Position numbers and translations under genes: made by a program. Shown piece by piece: positions 2,255 to 16,904 of a DNA stretch of 53,116 nt. Source of the DNA: Rhodospirillales bacterium CG15_BIG_FIL_POST_REV_8_21_14_020_66_15 (lineage in GTDB: Bacteria > Pseudomonadota > Alphaproteobacteria > Rhodospirillales > Casp-alpha2); the NCBI GenBank assembly GCA_002781745.1, contig PFFW01000147.1, positions 1 through 53,116 on the forward strand. The letters run 5' to 3'. Within the stretch, counting starts at the first letter, position 1. Every line of letters begins with the position of its first letter. The notes under the pieces are model-generated. The model was not told the DNA's origin and ran no database searches. It saw nothing but the letters and a program-made list of their open reading frames with translations.

Positions 2255-2380
2255 TCATTTGGCGACCGGCGTTCCTGCGGCGGGCTGCGCCTCGGGCTTG
2301 GCCGGCTCGGCGCCGGGCTTAGCGGCGGACGGGACGGGCTTCGCGGGCTTCTGGGACGTGGAAAAATCCTTAAAGGACAT
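2255..2380 (-). CDS. Small Ala/Pro/Lys-rich protein, 41 residues
   Basis: Begins with MSFKDFS and continues as a low-complexity alanine/proline/lysine tail, a layout I associate with short conserved alphaproteobacterial proteins starting MSFKDF. It ends at TGA 2255-2257. The ribosome binding site is weak (AAAGA). It is the first gene of the minus-strand run and sits directly downstream of an AT-rich stretch that probably holds its promoter. Function unknown. Confidence 0.55.
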   Translation of the reverse strand: MSFKDFSTSQKPAKPVPSAAKPGAEPAKPEAQPAAGTPVAK

Positions 2381-2523
2381 GCGATGTCTTTCCATTTATT
2401 TACGGAAACATTTCTGTCGCTAATATATGGTCATCTCAAAATAAATCTGCAATGGGATTATTTTTTATTTTGAAAATAAATAATAGATATTTTCATCATC
2501 AAATTATCGACATTCCGATAATT
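2381..2523. other. AT-rich intergenic segment
   Basis: About 140 bases of markedly AT-rich sequence in an otherwise GC-rich region. On the minus strand, TTGCAG (2447-2452) and TATATT (2422-2427) are 19 nt apart, a poor-spacing promoter candidate for the 41-residue gene. No gene is supported here. Confidence 0.4.
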
Positions 2524-2567
2524 TGTACGCCGGCCGCCTGATAGTTCCATCGCGACCGAACCCCGCC

Positions 2568-2718
2568 CTCCCGGTACACCTCCCGCCGCTGGTCGATCCT
2601 GAGAACCAGCACCACGAGCCGCCGGTCCCGGATGCCGCAGGTGATGCGCCGGTCGCCCACGCGGTAGCGCCACAGGCCGCCCAGGGAGCCGCTCAAGGCC
2701 CGACCTGGGCTGCGCGGG
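2568..2718 (-). pseudogene. Truncated duplicate of RelE/ParE-type toxin gene
   Basis: By my count, positions 2571-2718 match 3127-3274 of the intact toxin gene at 133 of 148 bases without gaps, covering its C-terminal 49 codons. Homology stops abruptly at 2718, so the N-terminal half is missing. The stop codon TAG of the intact gene is replaced by GAG at 2568-2570. No antitoxin copy accompanies it. It reads as a decayed partial duplication. Confidence 0.8.
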
Positions 2719-2793
2719 GCCCTTATGCGGCTGATGGACGGCCGGTTCGGCAGGCGGCCCGAGCGCGGCGCTGCACCCCGCCTGGCCGGCCGC

Positions 2794-2988
2794 CTACGGC
2801 CGGTTCAGGAAGGCGTCGCGGATGAGGTCCTGCGCCTCGCCGCCCAGGATGCTGGTGCTGATATCGGTTGCGGGGCGCGCGGATCGGCCGGACCGGCCAC
2901 GCGCCTTCTTCGCCGCCGGTTTCCGCGCGGACGCCTTGGCGGATTTTTTCCGGGAGCCTTTGGATTTCTTTTCAGGACCGTGCGCCAT
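2794..2988 (-). CDS. Small lysine/arginine-rich protein, 64 residues
   Basis: Start at 2988 is chosen because AAGGA lies 7 nt upstream; the open frame itself extends further. Residues 4-45 are dense in Lys, Arg, Ser and Ala ([17 protein letters not shown]), giving an H1-like basic tail. The C-terminal [18 protein letters not shown] is hydrophobic/acidic and could form a short helix. Nucleic-acid binding is a composition-based guess only. It lies between the toxin remnant and the intact toxin-antitoxin pair. Confidence 0.55.
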
Positions 2989-3123
2989 TGCGGATCCTTC
3001 GCCGTTGTTCGATACGTCACCCCCGACCGGGGCCGATTGAAGAATAGCGAATTTTCGCGGCCATGGCACCGCCTGCATGCAGGTTCGGCGTGGGGAGGCG
3101 CCAACCGGCCCGCCTAGCCTCCC

Positions 3124-3390
3124 CTACCGGCACACCTCCCGCCGGCGGCCGATCCTGAGCACCAGCACCACGAGCCGCCGGTCCCGGATGTCGCAGATGA
3201 TGCGCCAGTCGCCCACGCGATAGCGCCACAGACCGCCCAGGGGGCCGCTCAAGGCCTGGCCCAGGCTGCGCGGGTCGTCGAGGCCGGCGACGCGGGTTTC
3301 CAGGAAATCGCGGAGGCGCCGCCGCGTCGCCGGATCGAGTTTCGCCACGGTCTTGCGGACCGAGGCGGCGTACTCAATCGTCCAGCCCAC
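3124..3390 (-). CDS. RelE/ParE-family toxin
   Basis: 88-residue protein with the RelE-fold pattern: N-terminal IEYAASVRKTVAKLDPATRRRL helix pair, then [20 protein letters not shown] and a C-terminal [14 protein letters not shown] strand. Members usually cleave ribosome-associated mRNA (RelE) or poison gyrase (ParE); the arginine-rich core fits RelE better. It starts at GTG 3390 inside the antitoxin gene (17-nt overlap), so translation is coupled. The antitoxin is encoded first, as usual for relBE operons. Confidence 0.88.
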   Translation of the reverse strand: MGWTIEYAASVRKTVAKLDPATRRRLRDFLETRVAGLDDPRSLGQALSGPLGGLWRYRVGDWRIICDIRDRRLVVLVLRIGRRREVCR

Positions 3391-3595
3391 GCCAGAAGTC
3401 CTCGGCGTCCAACACCTTCTCCTCGCCCTTGCGCAGGCGCTCCAGCACGTCGGCGGCGAGGTAGTAGTCCTCCATGTCGTCGAGGCCGCGCTCGATCATC
3501 TCGCGCAGGTAGAAGGCCTTGCTGCGCCCGGTCCGGGCGGCGAGGAAATCGAGGCGCTGTTCCGCCTCGGGCGACAGGCGAACGGACGTGGCCAT
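3374..3595 (-). CDS. RelB-like ribbon-helix-helix antitoxin
   Basis: 73-residue protein. Residues 3-45 (TSVRLSPEAEQRLDFLAARTGRSKAFYLREMIERGL) match a ribbon-helix-helix DNA-binding domain. The acidic C-terminus (DAEDFWRGLDD) is the expected toxin-binding tail. GGAGG lies 8 nt before ATG 3595. It should neutralise the downstream toxin and repress its own promoter through the TGAATA repeats just upstream. Confidence 0.88.
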   Translation of the reverse strand: MATSVRLSPEAEQRLDFLAARTGRSKAFYLREMIERGLDDMEDYYLAADVLERLRKGEEKVLDAEDFWRGLDD

Positions 3596-3616
3596 GGCGC
3601 GGTCCTCCGTGAATGG

Positions 3617-3654
3617 TTGTATTCATTATATTCAGGATATTCATATCCCGGCAA
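3617..3654 (-). promoter_or_regulatory. Toxin-antitoxin promoter with three 9-bp repeats
   Basis: On the minus strand, three head-to-tail 9-mers of form TGAATANNN occupy 3617-3643, immediately before the antitoxin ribosome binding site. The middle repeat contains TATAAT (plus-strand 3625-3630). TTGCCG (3649-3654) lies 18 nt upstream of it as a -35. Repeats overlapping the -10 are what an autoregulating ribbon-helix-helix antitoxin would bind. Promoter and operator are inferred from pattern only. Confidence 0.6.
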
Positions 3655-3741
3655 GCCGGCCGCGCTTGAACCTCCCGCCGCCACGCCCTTTCCCCGTTAT
3701 GACACCTTGTAAATATCGGCGGATTCCGCAACTGTTCGCGG

Positions 3742-4644
3742 ATGACCGAATACATGACCAGCAAGGAACTGGCGGACTTCCTGCGCATCAAGCAGCGCAA
3801 GGTCTATGACCTGGCCGCGTCGGGGCGCATCCCCTGCTCGCGCGCCATGGGCAAGCTGCTGTTCCCGCGCGCCGAGATCGAGGCCTGGGTCGCCCAGGGC
3901 ATGGGCGGCACCGGCTTCGCCGCGGCCGCGGCGGCGGCGGCGCCCAACGTGGTGCTCGGCTCCCACGATCCGCTGCTCGATTGGGCGCTGCGCCAGTCGC
4001 GCTCGGGCCTCGCCACCTTCTTCGACGGCTCCGCCGACGGGCTGGACCGTTTCACCCGGGCCGAGGGCGTCGCCGCCGGCCTGCACATGTTCGATCCCGA
4101 GGGCAGCCGGGATGCGGGCGACGATGCGGCGTGGAACATCGGCTGGGCGCGGCGCATGGCCGCCGACATGCCCTGCGTGCTGGTCGAGTTCGCGTGGCGC
4201 GAGCGGGGCCTGATGTTCCGCCCCGGCGGGGCCGGGAACGTGCACGACATCGGCGACCTGCGCGGCCGGCTGATCGTGCCGCGCCAGCCCGAATCCGGGG
4301 CGCAGGCGCTGCTCGAGCATCTGATGGGCCAAGCCTGGGTCGCCCCGGAGGCCTGCACGATGACCGAGCCCGCGCGCACGGAAACGGAGGCGGCGGAGAT
4401 GGCGGCGGCCCACGGGGGCGCGGTCGCCTTCGGCCTGCGCGCCTCGGCCAATCAGTTCGGCCTCGCCTTCGCGCCGGTGCTGCGCGAGCGCTTCGACCTG
4501 CTGGTCGACCGCAAGGCCTGGTTCGAGCCGCCGTTCCAGCGCTTCCTCGCGTTCTGCGGCACGCGGGAATTCACCCTCAAGGCGGCGGCCCTGGAAGGCT
4601 ACGACGTGTCGGGCCTGGGCACCGTGCATTTCGTCGGGGCGTAG
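3742..4644 (+). CDS. HTH regulator with periplasmic-binding-like sensor domain
   Basis: 300-residue protein. Residues 4-52 (YMTSKELADFLRIKQRKVYDLAASGRIP...LLFPRAEIEAWV) form an excisionase/MerR-type helix-turn-helix. Residues ~70-300 resemble a PBP-like substrate-binding domain (DPLLDWAL...; RGRLIVPRQPESGAQALLEHLM). This architecture commonly accompanies molybdate or tungstate transporters, and the gene is convergent with a tup operon here. It probably senses the oxyanion in the cytoplasm and binds the dyads upstream of tupB. No copy of those dyads is evident upstream of its own start. Confidence 0.8.
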   Translation: MTEYMTSKELADFLRIKQRKVYDLAASGRIPCSRAMGKLLFPRAEIEAWVAQGMGGTGFAAAAAAAAPNVVLGSHDPLLDWALRQSRSGLATFFDGSADGLDRFTRAEGVAAGLHMFDPEGSRDAGDDAAWNIGWARRMAADMPCVLVEFAWRERGLMFRPGGAGNVHDIGDLRGRLIVPRQPESGAQALLEHLMGQAWVAPEACTMTEPARTETEAAEMAAAHGGAVAFGLRASANQFGLAFAPVLRERFDLLVDRKAWFEPPFQRFLAFCGTREFTLKAAALEGYDVSGLGTVHFVGA

Positions 4645-4734
4645 GCGCAAGACCCGAAGGTCGTTTTGCGCGCAATCGACGACCAACGTTGATCGTTAAT
4701 CGCCGCGCCGGTTCCATGCCGCCGGGGAACAGGA

Positions 4735-4880
4735 AAACCACAAAGACCGTGAGGCAGTGAGGATTCTGGATTCCCGCGTTCGCGGGAATGACGGGATTCA
4801 ACCGATACCCGTCACCCCCGCGCATGCAGCGGAGCCAGTTCACCTTTTATCTTCTCACTGCCTCACCGCCTCTGTGGTTT
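4735..4880. repeat. 27-bp imperfect inverted repeat enclosing a palindromic unit
   Basis: Arms 4735-4761 and 4854-4880 are reverse complements at 24 of 27 positions (core GAGGCAGTGAG / CTCACTGCCTC). Between them is the 20-bp palindrome 4770-4789 with ATTCCCGCG / CGCGGGAAT arms, inside a TCTGGATTCCCGCG type unit that is widespread in proteobacterial intergenic regions. No coding capacity. It looks like a compound intergenic repeat. Confidence 0.75.
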
Positions 4881-4997
4881 GAAATCAACGCCCGCCGCGA
4901 ACAGAAAGGACGGACCCGAAGGCCCGCCCTCTCCGTTTCGAAAATCCGGAAGGTTTCCCCTTTTTAGACCGTCCTTCATTTCACGCAAAACAACGTC

Positions 4998-5017
4998 GCG
5001 GGCGCTTGTGCGCCCGC
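4998..5017 (-). terminator. Likely terminator of the tup operon
   Basis: Perfect 8-bp stem (GCGGGCGC / GCGCCCGC) with a 4-nt loop, 13 nt past the tupA stop on the minus strand. The following sequence has only a short T stretch (GTTGTTTT), so termination efficiency is uncertain. Confidence 0.5.
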
Positions 5018-5030
5018 TCGGGTTTTGCGC

Positions 5031-5867
5031 CTACGACGACTTGCCGTTGGGGAAGAACAGCTGCAGGCCGTTCAGCTTGTAGGACGCGATGACGTCCTGG
5101 CCGTCCTTGGACAGCAGCCAGTCGATGAAGGCCTGGCCCTCGGCCCGCTTCACCTTGGGGCATTTCTTGGGGTTGACCAGGATCACGCCGTACTGGTTGA
5201 ACAGTTGCTTGTCGCCCTCGACGGCGATCCTGTAGGTGCCCTTGTTCTTGAAGCTGATCCAGGTGGCGCGGTCGGTCAGCGCATAGGCGCCCATGCCGAC
5301 GGCGGCGTTGAGGGTGGCGCCCATGCCGCTGCCGGTCTCGCGGTACCAGGAGCCCGAGGCCGTCTTGATGTCGACGCCGGCCTTCTTCCACAGCGCCACT
5401 TCCTTCTTGTGGGTGCCCGAGTTGTCGCCGCGCGACGCGAAGTTCGCCTTGGCGCCGGCGATCGTCTTGAGCGCCTTGGGCCCGTCCTTCATGCCGCCCA
5501 CCCCGGCCGGATCCTTGGCCGGGCCGACGACGACGAAGTCGTTGTACATGACGTCGGAACGCGTCACCCCGAAGCCTTCCTTGACGAACTTCTCCTCGGC
5601 CGGCTTGGCGTGGACCAGCAGCACGTCGCCGTCGCAGTTCTTGGCGTTCTTGATGGCCTGGCCGGTGCCGACGGCGACCACGTTGACCTTGATCCCCGAT
5701 TTCTTCTCGAAGATCGGCAGCATGTAGTCGTACAGGCCCGAGTTCTGGGTCGAGGTCGTCGACTGCACGATGATCGATTTGCCGGCGGCCGCGGCCGGGC
5801 CCGAGGCGAAGGCCCAGGCGGCCAGAAGGGCGGCGGCGCCCAGGGTGGTGCGTTTGAGGATTTGCAT
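5031..5867 (-). CDS. tupA: Tungstate ABC transporter, substrate-binding protein
   Basis: 278-residue periplasmic protein with a cleavable signal peptide (about residues 1-28, ending AAAA|GKS). It then carries the TupA hallmarks STTSTQNSGL and SRGDNSGTHKKE, which line the oxyanion pocket in this family. Start 5867 is chosen because GGGAGA precedes it and the signal peptide begins there; an upstream ATG at 5933 would add 22 residues. TupA proteins bind tungstate very tightly and usually prefer it over molybdate. Here tupA is last in the operon, 62 nt after tupC, which is unusual. Confidence 0.9.
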   Translation of the reverse strand: MQILKRTTLGAAALLAAWAFASGPAAAAGKSIIVQSTTSTQNSGLYDYMLPIFEKKSGIKVNVVAVGTGQAIKNAKNCDGDVLLVHAKPAEEKFVKEGFGVTRSDVMYNDFVVVGPAKDPAGVGGMKDGPKALKTIAGAKANFASRGDNSGTHKKEVALWKKAGVDIKTASGSWYRETGSGMGATLNAAVGMGAYALTDRATWISFKNKGTYRIAVEGDKQLFNQYGVILVNPKKCPKVKRAEGQAFIDWLLSKDGQDVIASYKLNGLQLFFPNGKSS

Positions 5868-13425: not shown

Positions 13426-15162
13426 TTGCCATGCCTGGACCGCATGGAACGGGAAACGCCCCTGGAATTCACCCGCCGCGCGGTGCTGACCGGCATGGTC
13501 CTGGGCGCCGCGCTGACGCCCTGCAACGTCTATTCGGGGCTGAAGATCGGCTGGTCCTTCAACATGTCGATCGCCGCCGGCCTGCTGGCCGTGGGCGCGT
13601 GGCGCCTGGCCGGGCGCGGCCTGGGCACGGCTCCCTTCGACCTGCGCGAGAACAACATCAACCAGACGGCGGCCTCGGCCTCGGCCTCCATCGTGTCGGG
13701 CGGCCTGGTGGCGCCGATCCCGGCCCTGACACTTCTGACCGGGCAGACGTTCGAGTGGCCGGTGCTGGCGTTCTGGGTGTTCAGCGTGTCGATCCTGGGC
13801 GTGGTCGTCGCCGCGGGCCTGCGCCGGCAGATGATCGAGCACGAGAACCTGGCCTTTCCGGCGGGCCTGGCCACGGCCGAGACGCTGAGGCGCATCCACG
13901 GGGCGGGCCGCGAGCAGGCGGGCCGCCTGCGCGCCCTTCTGGCCGCCGCCGGCGTATCGGCGGCGGCCAAGCTGGCCGTGGACCTGGCGGCGGCGGTGCC
14001 GCGCCTGGCCCTGCCGGGCGGATTCGCGGGCGGCGTCACCTTCAGGAACCTGGGGCTGGCCTTCGATCCGTCGCTCCTGATGATCGGCTTCGGCGCGCTG
14101 ATCGGCCCGCGCGCGGGGCTGTCGTTGCTGCTGGGGGCGGTCGCCGCCTGGGGCGTCCTGGCCCCCTGGGTGCTGGACCGGGGCTGGGCCCGGCCGGGCG
14201 CGGCGGACGCGGTGTGGTTCTCGGATCTGGTGGGCTGGCTGCTGTGGCCGGGAGTGACGCTGACGGTCGTCTCGGCGCTGACGTCGTTCGCGCTCTCCGT
14301 CCTTCGCCTGCGCCGCCGCCTGGCCGGAACGGGCGGCCTGGGTGGGCGGATCGGCCGGGGATACGTGCTGGCGCTGGGATCGGTCACGGCGCTGATCTGC
14401 GTCGCCGGCTGGGCCCTGTTCGGCCTGCCGGTCTGGGTCTCGGTGCTGGCGGTCGGGCTCAGCTACGTGCTGGCGGTGATCGCCGCCCGCGTGTCGGGCG
14501 AGACCGGGGTGACCCCCGTGGGCGCCCTGGGCAAGGTGACGCAGCTGACCTATGGCGCCGTCACGCCGGGCGACGTGGCGGCCAACCTGATGACCGCCAA
14601 CGTCACGGGCGGGGCCGCCGGCCAATGCGCCGACATGATGCACGACCTGAAGACGGGCCACATCGTCGGCGCTACGCCGCGCCTGCAGCTCTACGCCCAG
14701 GCCTTCGGCGTCCTGACCGGCAGCCTTGCCGGGGCCGCGGTCTACCTGGTCCTGGTGCCCGATCCCGGGGCCATGCTGATGACGCCCGAGTGGCCGGCGC
14801 CCGCGGTCGCCACCTGGAAGGCGGTGGCGGAGGTGCTGTCGGCGGGCCTGGGCGCGATCCCCGAGGGGACCGCCCCCGCCATGGCCGTGGCCGCCGTCCT
14901 CGGCCTGATCCTGGGCGCGGCGGACCGTCTGCTGCCGGAACCCGTCGCGCGCTTCCTGCCGAGCGCGCCCGCCGCCGGCGTCGCCTTCGTCATCCCGGCG
15001 TGGAATTCGTTTTCGCTGTGCCTGGGGGCGGTGATCGCGGCCTTGGCCGCGTACCTGCGCCCCGAATGGACGGCGCGCTACGGTACGGCCCTCGCCGCTG
15101 GACTGGTGGCCGGGGAAAGCCTGATCGGCGTGGCGCTGGCGTTCAGGGGCATGGCGGGGTAG
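13426..15162 (+). CDS. OPT-family oligopeptide/metal-chelate transporter
   Basis: 578 residues with many membrane spans and OPT signatures: EFTRRAVLTGMVLGAALTPCNVYSGLKIGWSFNMS at the N-terminus, NNINQTAASAS near residue 80, and AGLVAGESLIGV at the C-terminus. OPT proteins import small peptides or metal-siderophore complexes across the inner membrane. A second start at 13444 (MERETPLEF) is about equally likely; neither has a clear ribosome binding site. It diverges from the receiver operon. Its last 63 bases are present again 1.2 kb downstream. Confidence 0.85.
   Translation: MPCLDRMERETPLEFTRRAVLTGMVLGAALTPCNVYSGLKIGWSFNMSIAAGLLAVGAWRLAGRGLGTAPFDLRENNINQTAASASASIVSGGLVAPIPALTLLTGQTFEWPVLAFWVFSVSILGVVVAAGLRRQMIEHENLAFPAGLATAETLRRIHGAGREQAGRLRALLAAAGVSAAAKLAVDLAAAVPRLALPGGFAGGVTFRNLGLAFDPSLLMIGFGALIGPRAGLSLLLGAVAAWGVLAPWVLDRGWARPGAADAVWFSDLVGWLLWPGVTLTVVSALTSFALSVLRLRRRLAGTGGLGGRIGRGYVLALGSVTALICVAGWALFGLPVWVSVLAVGLSYVLAVIAARVSGETGVTPVGALGKVTQLTYGAVTPGDVAANLMTANVTGGAAGQCADMMHDLKTGHIVGATPRLQLYAQAFGVLTGSLAGAAVYLVLVPDPGAMLMTPEWPAPAVATWKAVAEVLSAGLGAIPEGTAPAMAVAAVLGLILGAADRLLPEPVARFLPSAPAAGVAFVIPAWNSFSLCLGAVIAALAAYLRPEWTARYGTALAAGLVAGESLIGVALAFRGMAG
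15100..15162 (+). repeat. OPT 3'-end repeat, left copy
   Basis: The final 21 codons of the OPT gene match 16319-16381 at 52 of 63 positions in the same reading frame with the same stop. The longest identical run is 17 bases (GAAAGCCTGATCGGCGT). Together the copies bracket a low-GC gene. See the right copy. Confidence 0.75.
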
Positions 15163-15301
15163 CGCGGCTGTTCCTTGGATTGGATGGCGGGGCTACCCCA
15201 TCCGAGGCGCGCGCGCCTGGAAATCGCGCCGTCAAATGTCCGACATTAGCCAGCATCAGACTTTCAGTCGGGATATTGAAAAGCCTCCGATTCGCGCAGT
15301 G

Positions 15302-15331
15302 TTGATGACCGTCGGCTCCATTCTCTTATAT
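15302..15331 (+). promoter_or_regulatory. Candidate promoter of the low-GC orphan gene
   Basis: TTGATG (15302-15307) and TTATAT (15326-15331) are 18 nt apart, within an AT-rich leader unlike the surrounding DNA. A perfect small palindrome AATGTC-C-GACATT lies upstream at 15235-15247 and could be an operator or a boundary sequence. Confidence 0.45.
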
Positions 15332-15378
15332 AGAAAATTTGTGCTATCCTCTTTCATAAGTAGAGGGAAGCGGGGGGA

Positions 15379-16224
15379 ATGACTTTCGACGAAATGACCG
15401 CTGCGGTAAGCGCGAAGTTGGTCGCTACGTTCGAGCGCCGAGACAGAGACTTGTCGAGCGAGAGAAACAAGAAAAACTCGCACGCCGTCAAGGCGGGGGC
15501 GTCCGGTTCTAGCCGGGCGCTGTTGATGATCGTTGATCTTTTTAAATCCGAGATTTCGGATCGCGCCGGGATCGTCTCGGAGCAGCTTCGGGAAACGTCA
15601 AGAGCGGTTGGACTTCAGCCTATCCCGGACTTGGAGGCCCAGCTTCGTGGATACGTAGAAACTACCATGGATGCTCAGCACGCTTCTCTCCGCGCCAATA
15701 TGGTAGGAAACCCGCCGTTCAAGGGGACAACCCTCCAAAATCAGTCAATGATAGCGCAAACAACCAGCCAGTTTGACGAAGTCTCCAAGACGGCAAGAGA
15801 CGGCGTTCTTGCTGATATGGCGCTGCTTGCCAGCGAAATTCAATCCGCAGCCAGTAACAAAGTGGGACGGGGTGATATGCATGTGAATATCAACGCCCCG
15901 GTTGGCATACTTCAAACCGGTGACTTTGCGAGCGCCAGCCAATCCATCACTGTTACGCCTGACGCGGCCGCAGAGGTGGTGAGGGCGCTTGAGGTATTAG
16001 AGATTGCTGTCTCAGCCCTTACCGAAACCGCGATCAACCGCGATGAGCTAAAGGCGATCATCGGTGAGTGTAAGGCCGAATTGGCAAAAGACGCACCTAA
16101 CAAAACCCGATTGTCTGCCCTACTTTACGGCGTTGCCGGAACCGTGCAGACGACAGCGGCACTGAAACCGGCCTACGAAACATTTAGAACCGCTCTTTCC
16201 GCAATTGGGATACCGCTTCCGTAA
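15379..16224 (+). CDS. Low-GC orphan protein with QTGD motif, 281 residues
   Basis: Codon use and base composition are clearly more AT-rich than in neighbours, pointing to recent transfer. The protein is soluble and mostly helical. Around residues 160-185 it has the short beta-like motif MHVNINAPVGILQTGDFASASQSI; similar xGxxQTGxxxTA strings occur in proteins of mobile or defence-related loci, for example some with AbiTii-like domains. The N-terminal region is not recognised. It has its own AT-rich promoter region, and GGGAAGCGGGGGGA precedes ATG 15379. It lies between two copies of the OPT 3' end. Function unknown. Confidence 0.65.
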   Translation: MTFDEMTAAVSAKLVATFERRDRDLSSERNKKNSHAVKAGASGSSRALLMIVDLFKSEISDRAGIVSEQLRETSRAVGLQPIPDLEAQLRGYVETTMDAQHASLRANMVGNPPFKGTTLQNQSMIAQTTSQFDEVSKTARDGVLADMALLASEIQSAASNKVGRGDMHVNINAPVGILQTGDFASASQSITVTPDAAAEVVRALEVLEIAVSALTETAINRDELKAIIGECKAELAKDAPNKTRLSALLYGVAGTVQTTAALKPAYETFRTALSAIGIPLP

Positions 16225-16277
16225 AGTAGGTTTGATATCAATATGCATGCGTGCCCGGGCGACTGCGGGGGAAGGCA

Positions 16278-16303
16278 TGTCCGCTTCGGGTCAAAAGCAG
16301 ACA
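16278..16303. repeat. Stem-loop intergenic repeat element
   Basis: Arms TGTCCGCTT (16278-16286) and AAGCAGACA (16295-16303) pair with one mismatch around CGGGTCAA. I associate this TGTCCGCTTyGGGTCA type of sequence with common alphaproteobacterial intergenic repeats. It lies directly before the OPT remnant and may mark the right edge of the inserted segment. Confidence 0.5.
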
Positions 16304-16318
16304 CCCGCCGCCGTGGCC

Positions 16319-16381
16319 GGACCGGTGGCCGGAGAAAGCCTGATCGGCGTCGGCCTGGCGCTGACGCGAATGGCGGGATAG
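16319..16381 (+). pseudogene. OPT 3'-end remnant, right copy
   Basis: Encodes GPVAGESLIGVGLALTRMAG followed by TAG, clearly homologous in frame to the end of the OPT protein. Protein-level similarity extends about five codons further upstream (AAVA). Eleven of 63 bases differ from the left copy, so this is a diverged allele or paralogue end, not a recent duplication. It has no start and is not a gene. Confidence 0.75.
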
Positions 16382-16397
16382 GCCGGTCCCCGCCCGA

Positions 16398-16658
16398 TCA
16401 GTGCAGCCGCAACTGGCCCTCGATCAGCCGGAACTCCGCCGGGCGGACCAGCGCCACCGAGGCGACGCGCACGGAATGCAGCGGGCCGTCCAGGTTGTTT
16501 TCCCAGAATTCCAGGAACCGGCGCAGCACGGGAAAGTCCGGGGCGATGTCCAGGTCCTGCCAGATGTAGTCCTGAAGAAGGTGGAGATGATCCGGCCGCC
16601 GGTAGGTGATTTCGGCCGTGGTCAGGCGGTACCCCGAAAGCTGCATTTCCAAAGACAT
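16398..16658 (-). CDS. usg: Usg-like family protein
   Basis: 86 residues matching the alphaproteobacterial Usg-like family along its length: LSGYRLTTAEITYRRPDH, WQDLDIAPDFPVLRRFLEFWENNLDG, LHSVRVA and the terminal PAEFRLIEGQLRLH. Despite the historical association with trpF, no enzymatic function is established. It is a stand-alone minus-strand gene. Confidence 0.88.
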   Translation of the reverse strand: MSLEMQLSGYRLTTAEITYRRPDHLHLLQDYIWQDLDIAPDFPVLRRFLEFWENNLDGPLHSVRVASVALVRPAEFRLIEGQLRLH

Positions 16659-16904
16659 GTCAGATCCTCCGTCTTGGTTGCGTGGCTTGCATGTCCTCCC
16701 TGATATCCTGGATTGTCGCCCCGAAAATTCGACGCCGTCAATAATTAATGCATGAAAAACAACGGATTAGCAGCCTTCTGGTGAGAGTGCTGCCAGGGGG
16801 TGGACGGGGGTGCCGGCCGCCCTCGCCCGCCTTTCTTGTGGCCCCCGGGCCCGGCGCTGGCTATGTAGGGATTGAGGATCAACCGACCCGGGACACCCGC
16901 CGCC

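Follow-up and report, generated by a model that had tools for sequence, protein, structure and literature searches.

The DNA analysed here, called the window throughout, is a stretch of 53,116 nucleotides from Rhodospirillales bacterium CG15_BIG_FIL_POST_REV_8_21_14_020_66_15 (contig C42, PFFW01000147.1, of a 3.85-Mb assembly in 198 contigs). Our subject is a short AT-rich insert at the 3' end of its gene for an OPT family transporter. The duplication of the OPT 3' end in the window is confirmed, and the insertion at this gene end is real, well delimited and of a known general kind. Between the two copies of the gene end lie a single gene, which we refer to as the orphan, and a dispersed palindromic repeat resembling repetitive extragenic palindromic (REP) elements. 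With regard to the route of entry, we put at about even the chance that a foreign one-gene insert with its REP-like repeat entered at the OPT 3' end by one-sided recombination, also known as homology-facilitated illegitimate recombination (HFIR). The features concerned are the following:

13426-15162, plus strand: OPT family transporter gene, complete, with a mechanically assigned start codon (PF03169, E = 7.7e-95)
15100-15162, plus strand: left copy, forming the 3' end of the OPT gene itself; 52/63 identical to the right copy, its last 31 nt nearest to G003/G007
15115-15131, plus strand: longest exact stretch common to both copies, 17 bp; partner at 16334-16350
15163-16306, plus strand: inserted DNA, absent between OPT and usg in 6/6 congeners with OPT; right limit uncertain by several bases
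15379-16224, plus strand: orphan gene, 281 aa, low GC, the sole ORF of substantial size in the insert
16279-16302, plus strand: dispersed palindromic repeat GTCCGCTTNGGGTCAAAAGCNGAC, exact pattern match; absent between OPT and usg in congeners
16307-16381, plus strand: right copy, a displaced OPT 3' end with stop, at the native place beside usg; its last 31 nt nearest to G001/G002/G005/G006
16398-16658, minus strand: usg gene, native downstream neighbour of OPT (PF06233, E = 2.3e-37), present in 8/8 genus genomes

The insert between OPT and usg

The last 63 bases of the OPT gene (15100-15162) recur 1,219 bp downstream (16319-16381) without gaps and with 52 of 63 positions identical, and both copies are in frame and end in TAG. 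The position and the identity of the second copy agree with those in a preliminary description of the sequence. The ungapped pair can be extended to 80 nt at 78% identity (15088-15167 and 16307-16386). Searched against the whole of its own genome, the 63-mer matched at these two places only at E <= 0.001 (1.2e-26 and 5.3e-12). As a control, we took the 3'-terminal 63 nt of 148 open frames of the window (at least 150 codons between stops) and searched both strands of its remainder for their counterparts; the other gene ends scored 29-39, compared to 52 for the OPT pair. Within the duplication the first 32 nt are identical at 30 positions and the last 31 nt at 22.

The sites without the insert were found in the genus of the window's organism, for which eight genomes were available (its own and seven others, G001 to G007). 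A search of 61 genomes detected OPT in seven, i.e. in the own genome and in six of the seven other genus members, with one match in each. In all six of these congeners OPT is followed directly by usg and neither the insert nor the orphan is present; the gap between the two genes is 8 bp in G006 and 13 bp in G003 and G007, and their stop codons overlap in G001, G002 and G005. In the window, 16 bp separate the end of the right copy from the usg stop, a distance not far from the native one; both OPT and usg are kept, and no resident gene is lost when compared to the congeners. Empty sites in relatives were what the preliminary description had proposed to look for, and their presence supports its suggestion of an insertion at a gene 3' end that left the gene complete. 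The simple reading is that the orphan insert is a gain in one lineage, since the orphan is missing from the seven other genus genomes and gave few hits in wider samples.

The same description also considered that most of a second OPT paralogue had been replaced by foreign DNA. A second 3' end in frame is what such a replacement would leave, but each of the seven genomes has one OPT match and the right copy stands at the place of the native OPT end. We therefore rejected this explanation, which we find hardly credible. Equally hard to credit is an assembly fault that joined a foreign contig at the OPT end: although the assembly is split into 198 contigs, the copies share at most 17 exact bases, which is below the usual word sizes of assemblers, and similar scars are found in the assemblies of other species.

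In the genomes sampled, the OPT gene itself is nearly confined to the genus (two of 385 class genomes at E <= 1e-30, its own and G293, the latter at 61%). In G004 of the genus OPT is absent and usg is kept.

The insert is ~1.14 kb long and its AT-rich core extends from ~15200 to ~16250. GC content is 0.547 in the orphan (GC3 0.59) versus 0.742 in OPT (GC3 0.94) and 0.674 in the window, in agreement with the earlier observation of one AT-richer gene between the copies. No repeat pair of the kind that forms transposon-like inverted ends spans the insert from end to end, and the RNA folds of its edges were no more stable than those of shuffled sequences. No Rfam family reached the gathering threshold in 15000-16700, and for the promoter region that the preliminary description had ascribed to the orphan, a scan for the sigma-70 consensus, with other promoter types outside its scope, found no site where 0.5 was expected. 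The ten loci scanned for tRNA genes contained none. The statement that no integrase is visible holds for the insert, and none was recognised in the inserts of G001 and G003 described below.

Origin of the two gene ends and route of entry

If the insert entered by one-sided recombination, the incoming DNA would most likely have carried an OPT-like 3' end of its own beside the orphan. Pairing of this end with the resident OPT gene would have produced the left junction and left OPT complete with the incoming tail, while the other end of the DNA would have been attached within the resident OPT end with no long homology involved. The native OPT end would then persist as the ~75 bp fragment beside usg. 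We infer the incoming origin of the left tail and the one-sided join from the comparisons that follow.

We compared the tails of the two copies with those of the congeners. The last 31 nt of the right copy match G001, G002, G005 and G006 at 23-25 positions and G003 and G007 at 18, and the last 31 nt of the left copy match the same two groups at 20-22 and 23-24 positions, respectively. In the body of OPT, 105 of 148 informative sites follow G001/G002/G005/G006, 32 follow G003/G007 and 11 follow neither. The simplest reading of these sequences would be a native right tail and a left tail that arrived with the insert, and among five trees compared on the 31 tail sites the one with this history was the best.

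Gene ends are duplicated at two further loci. A scan for direct repeats in 535,360 bases (26 loci and the window) returned 22 pairs, three of which are duplicated gene 3' ends that flank other genes. All three are at loci bearing the palindromic repeat, namely at OPT, at a CoA-ligase-like gene of G001 (46 bp, 83%) and at a decarboxylase-like gene of G003 (59 bp, 90%, the displaced copy with a stop). Another three pairs, in L119, L125 and L134, touch a gene end. The displaced ligase end of G001 matches G006 at 49 and G005 at 48 of 57 positions, compared to 39 of 57 with each for the attached end. Moreover, the G001 ligase gene differs from that of G006 at 64 of 202 positions in its last 205 nt versus 13 of 200 in the preceding 200 nt (p = 6e-11); the corresponding step relative to G005 has p = 1.4e-9 and the G006-G005 control p = 0.06. 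Counted from the stop, foreign-like sequence begins at about -216 and the duplicated stretch at about -135, so that the step lies upstream of the duplication. A crossover at an attachment (att) core would make the foreign sequence begin inside the duplicated stretch, and the upstream start thus favours a homologous anchor combined with an illegitimate join. One-sided homologous recombination at G001 appears well supported by these alignments. By analogy we would tentatively prefer the same route for OPT, since the genes that were hit differ, no shared core is seen by eye, the OPT insert has no integrase and none was recognised in the other two. As the target genes differ and share no core by eye, a single integrase site serving the OPT, CoA-ligase-like and decarboxylase-like genes is unlikely.

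This type of acquisition has parallels, of which HFIR and the T6SS displacement model named below are the nearest mechanisms in print, and e14 at icd the nearest precedent with an integrase. In the passages of PMC3240628 that concern us, HFIR forms an illegitimate junction with 3-10 bp of microhomology, and its products usually carry a ~1 kb deletion, a general though not obligatory feature. Together with the model of 3' displacement at type VI secretion system (T6SS) immunity arrays and Rhs genes, as set out in part of PMC5361080, HFIR (PMC3240628) resembles our insert in the single homologous anchor proposed here, the foreign genes placed 3' of it, the old 3' material downstream and the absence of a recombinase. 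Unlike in the cited parts of these two papers (PMC3240628, PMC5361080), the anchors here are ordinary metabolic or transport genes, only a gene end is displaced, the ~1 kb deletion is missing and a dispersed repeat is present at the edge of the insert. The small variable segments treated in the relevant sections of PMC2884548 are likewise short pieces of foreign DNA lying among backbone genes and ascribed for the most part to illegitimate recombination; those occur within a species, whereas the present ones are seen between species, with gene-end duplication and an edge repeat.

We also considered that the insert is all that remains of a site-specific integrative element, whether prophage, satellite or island, which we regard as unlikely but as deserving weight. 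An integrase would have crossed over in the OPT end, supplied a 3' end and later been lost or acted in trans (compare e14 at icd). A complete gene with a displaced fragment, as found at OPT, is the signature of such islands in the parts of PMC4383910 and PMC6379469 that describe them. Like e14 at icd and the target-regenerating islands in those descriptions (PMC6379469, PMC4383910), the OPT insert combines an alternative 3' end that keeps the gene complete with a native-like end at its far side. The copies of the OPT end share a 17-bp core exactly and are similar in their first halves, with tails that have diverged, which would also suit an element; the organism's own genome has six places with a tyrosine recombinase domain (PF00589). 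However, none of these six places is on the window contig, and the insert holds one gene and no integrase gene, unlike the islands as portrayed in these sources (PMC6379469, PMC4383910). It further differs from them in that targets and cores vary between loci and in that the G001 foreign tract begins outside, upstream of, the duplicated stretch, where a core crossover would not put it. In addition, the core pattern was found in no viral contig.

Several observations weigh against entry by one-sided recombination. No donor sequence was found, and the right junction (~16300-16307) was read by eye, where microhomology without a donor is not separable from chance; nor does OPT show the ~1 kb deletion typical of HFIR. 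Unique substitutions show no step along OPT that would delimit a foreign tract. In the first 32 nt both copies share two states (GGA and GTG) that are unseen in the six congeners, and these shared states, with 30 of 32 positions identical, are fitted better by a crossover inside the duplicated stretch or by a plain duplication than by a crossover upstream. The similar first halves keep att-type exchange and plain duplication alive. In trees from all 63 sites the best tree made the left copy native and placed the right copy beside G006; the history that we favour had p 0.58 and duplication within the lineage p 0.36, and just two of the five trees were rejected. With the 31 tail sites, duplication within the lineage had p = 0.134 in the approximately unbiased (AU) test. 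These tree tests decide little about the origin of the copies. The other two loci also yield points on this side. The G001 ligase gene (L132, ~2600-5196) also diverges in a second tract, located 900-1,200 nt ahead of the stop, with 69-78% identity to G006/G005 between stretches of 83-97%; the gene is thus a mosaic, and its two features need not share one event. In G003 the direction is reversed, as the attached copy matches the congeners at 55-56 of 66 positions and the displaced copy at 49-50. The sequence to the left of the G003 decarboxylase-like gene had no match in the examined stretches of G002, G005 and G006. Thus G003 supports a recurring gene-end duplication, and it supports neither a direction nor an empty site.

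Plain duplication would mean that the OPT end was copied within the lineage by slippage or unequal exchange and that the orphan entered between the copies separately. We consider this improbable. It is compatible with the trees (AU p = 0.134 for 31 sites and 0.36 for 63 sites) and with the nearly identical first 32 nt. However, it needs two events, the tails are no closer to each other (22/31) than to those of congeners (right 23-25, left 23-24), and gene-end duplications surround foreign-like content at two other loci. The preliminary description had preferred an exchange with an incoming 3' end over a recent duplication; the comparison of the tails fits such an exchange without proving it, and the trees do not reject plain duplication.

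The dispersed repeat and the variable slots beside it

The repeat at the right edge of the insert is widespread among relatives. When one mismatch was allowed, GTCCGCTTNGGGTCAAAAGCNGAC was found in 15 of 100 relatives; when three were allowed, it was found in 31 of 48 family genomes, with up to 26 copies in each. The backward sequence, which served as a control, gave no match in the 48. It is REP-like, being a short palindrome with several intergenic copies, where the intergenic position was checked at some copies only. In genus g14 the repeat abounds in many genomes, often with a second half-unit ~20 nt further on; in the window's own genus it is rare, the eight genomes having 16 copies in all (0-4 in each). 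Copies are located at 16279-16302 of the window and in L099-L105, L121, L125, L128, L129 and L131-L136. The preliminary description had spoken of a stem-loop repeat. The word repeat holds better than stem-loop, since the RNA fold of the right edge is no more stable than those of shuffled sequences. The repeat proved to be one that is dispersed in the bacterial family. As the repeat is missing at the OPT-usg junction of the congeners, it either came with the insert or arose later at OPT. The layout of one gene plus a repeat brings an integron gene cassette to mind, but the repeat does not appear to resemble the attC core. The literature library that we searched contained no mention of the 14-mer gtccgctttgggtc or of the peptide string alppkadi, a string known from spurious ORFs in such repeats. 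According to the relevant part of PMC5082802, REP elements occur at gene 3' ends and in intergenic regions, and the Br-REP1 and Br-REP2 elements of Bradyrhizobium described there resemble our repeat as short intergenic palindromes, some of them at convergent gene ends, with a strongly varying copy number. In contrast to what that account (PMC5082802) gives for Br-REP1 and Br-REP2, GTCCGCTTNGGGTCAAAAGCNGAC has a different consensus, 0-4 copies per genome of the genus and, among the copies measured, a position mostly at compositional edges.

These edges were measured by comparing the GC content of the 300 bp before and the 300 bp after the repeat at nine of the 16 genus copies and at 29 copies outside the genus. 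In the genus, GC was lower before the repeat at eight of the nine copies, and by more than 0.1 at six; at L092 of G002 the step was reversed (0.16). Outside the genus there was no trend (16 of 29 copies richer after the repeat, four differing by more than 0.1). A difference above 0.1 in either direction was thus seen at 7/9 versus 4/29 copies (p = 0.0007), a value that is too good, since three of the nine copies represent one orthologous locus, the idea itself came from the window copy, and the list of loci was used as it stood. For several copies, a GC-rich frame has its 3' end no more than 60 nt away, in keeping with the modest interpretation that the repeat simply travels with AT-rich DNA.

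At two loci of the genus, the repeat forms the edge of a slot with variable content. At the first, G006, G005 and G001 share the CoA-ligase-like gene on the left and a histidine-phosphatase-like flank on the right (both names were read from the translations), and the alignable right flank starts at most 2 nt from the repeat in each comparison. The contents between these flanks are unrelated: G006 has a 2OG-Fe(II) oxygenase gene (PF13759), G005 a 423-aa gene that matches nothing in Pfam, and G001 a segment of several genes that include PNPOx and LysR genes. At the second locus, G005 and G003 have a common right flank from 4 nt before the repeat onwards and again unrelated contents (~0.8 kb with a TumE-type toxin gene, PF20126, in G005 versus 4.1 kb in G003), while G002 lacks the content, the repeat and ~350 bp beyond it. 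In the G005 slot (L125, 8513-9155, minus strand), the TumE-type gene overlaps a helix-turn-helix gene (PF25212), and the two are likely a toxin-antitoxin pair. The third locus compared (L121 of G002 versus L127 of G005) has no slot, and it is here that the GC step is reversed. The comparisons cover the loci for which a comparator existed; L131, L133 and L136 had none.

Four comparisons were made across the two slot loci; in each of them 5 of the 24 repeat positions differ, versus 0-3 positions in the next 30 nt (p 0.013 to 0.44). These sequence differences hint that the repeat may travel with the cargo. A further-reaching proposal would make GTCCGCTTNGGGTCAAAAGCNGAC the working end of a cargo-capture system, in which a cargo of one AT-rich gene, or of a few, would enter beside the repeat or bear it as its right end, through some recombination activity that uses gene 3' ends as the other anchor; we hold this to be decidedly improbable. 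The recurring pattern of scar and edge repeat was not found described in the literature library searched.

When short DNA is acquired without an integrase or a transposase, readable traces are rare. The present case offers an explicit one, made up of the empty sites, the displaced gene end, the duplicated ends at two loci of sister species and the repeat at the edge of the slots. This makes it a testable question whether such islets are taken up via one-sided homologous recombination or by an unrecognised site-directed mechanism, and it may be a recurring route for the uptake of short DNA in these bacteria.

Relatives of the orphan gene and a further repeat

Relatives of the orphan are few and distant (21-26% identity over the alignment). 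The gene was found in none of the seven other genomes of the genus, and among 200 relatives only in its own genome and in G017; a class sample of 385 genomes added three genomes and a phylum sample of 398 added none (the samples overlap). The sole named relative in genome contigs belongs to a groundwater Rhodospirillales metagenome-assembled genome, apparently G017.

We examined the neighbours of these relatives. The orphan relative in G017 is directly followed by a gene encoding an Mrr-type nuclease domain (PF04471, above cut-off). In G273, an Eco57I-type methylase gene (strong match) is nearby, as is a gene with weak, below-cut-off matches to PLD-type nucleases, and in G263 an ApeA-type pair (PF18862 and PF18739) lies near the relative. 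A further relative is located on a conjugative plasmid of Beijerinckia indica, where none of the 17 features shown is named as a defence gene. From the neighbours of these distant relatives we infer a possible defence-related role for the orphan, and if it has such a role, a gene of this kind travels as a single unit. The two G017 genes (L021, 5761-7809, minus strand) are 15 bp apart and possibly form a two-gene defence unit.

Profile searches gave limited information on the protein. The profile of the phage-defence candidate PDC-M14B did not match the orphan protein of the window at E up to 10; it weakly matched three of the four members of the orphan alignment A1 (best 5.6e-4) and the plasmid homologue (8.5e-4). 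PDC-M14 is not mentioned in the literature library searched. The orphan had no Pfam match above a curated cut-off, and neither NCBIfam nor PADLOC gave a hit at E up to 1; PHROG matches were found only at E 0.065 or worse, and no solved structure matched below E 0.47. Phage records contained no match, and in viral contigs none of 188 candidate stretches was confirmed as a relative of alignment A2. The AlphaFold model, built from a two-row alignment, is weak (mean pLDDT 62.5) and mostly helical.

Elsewhere in the window, 2566-2718 and 3122-3274 form a direct repeat of 153 nt with 89.5% identity, and two ORFs of at least 150 aa overlap the region 2300-3500.

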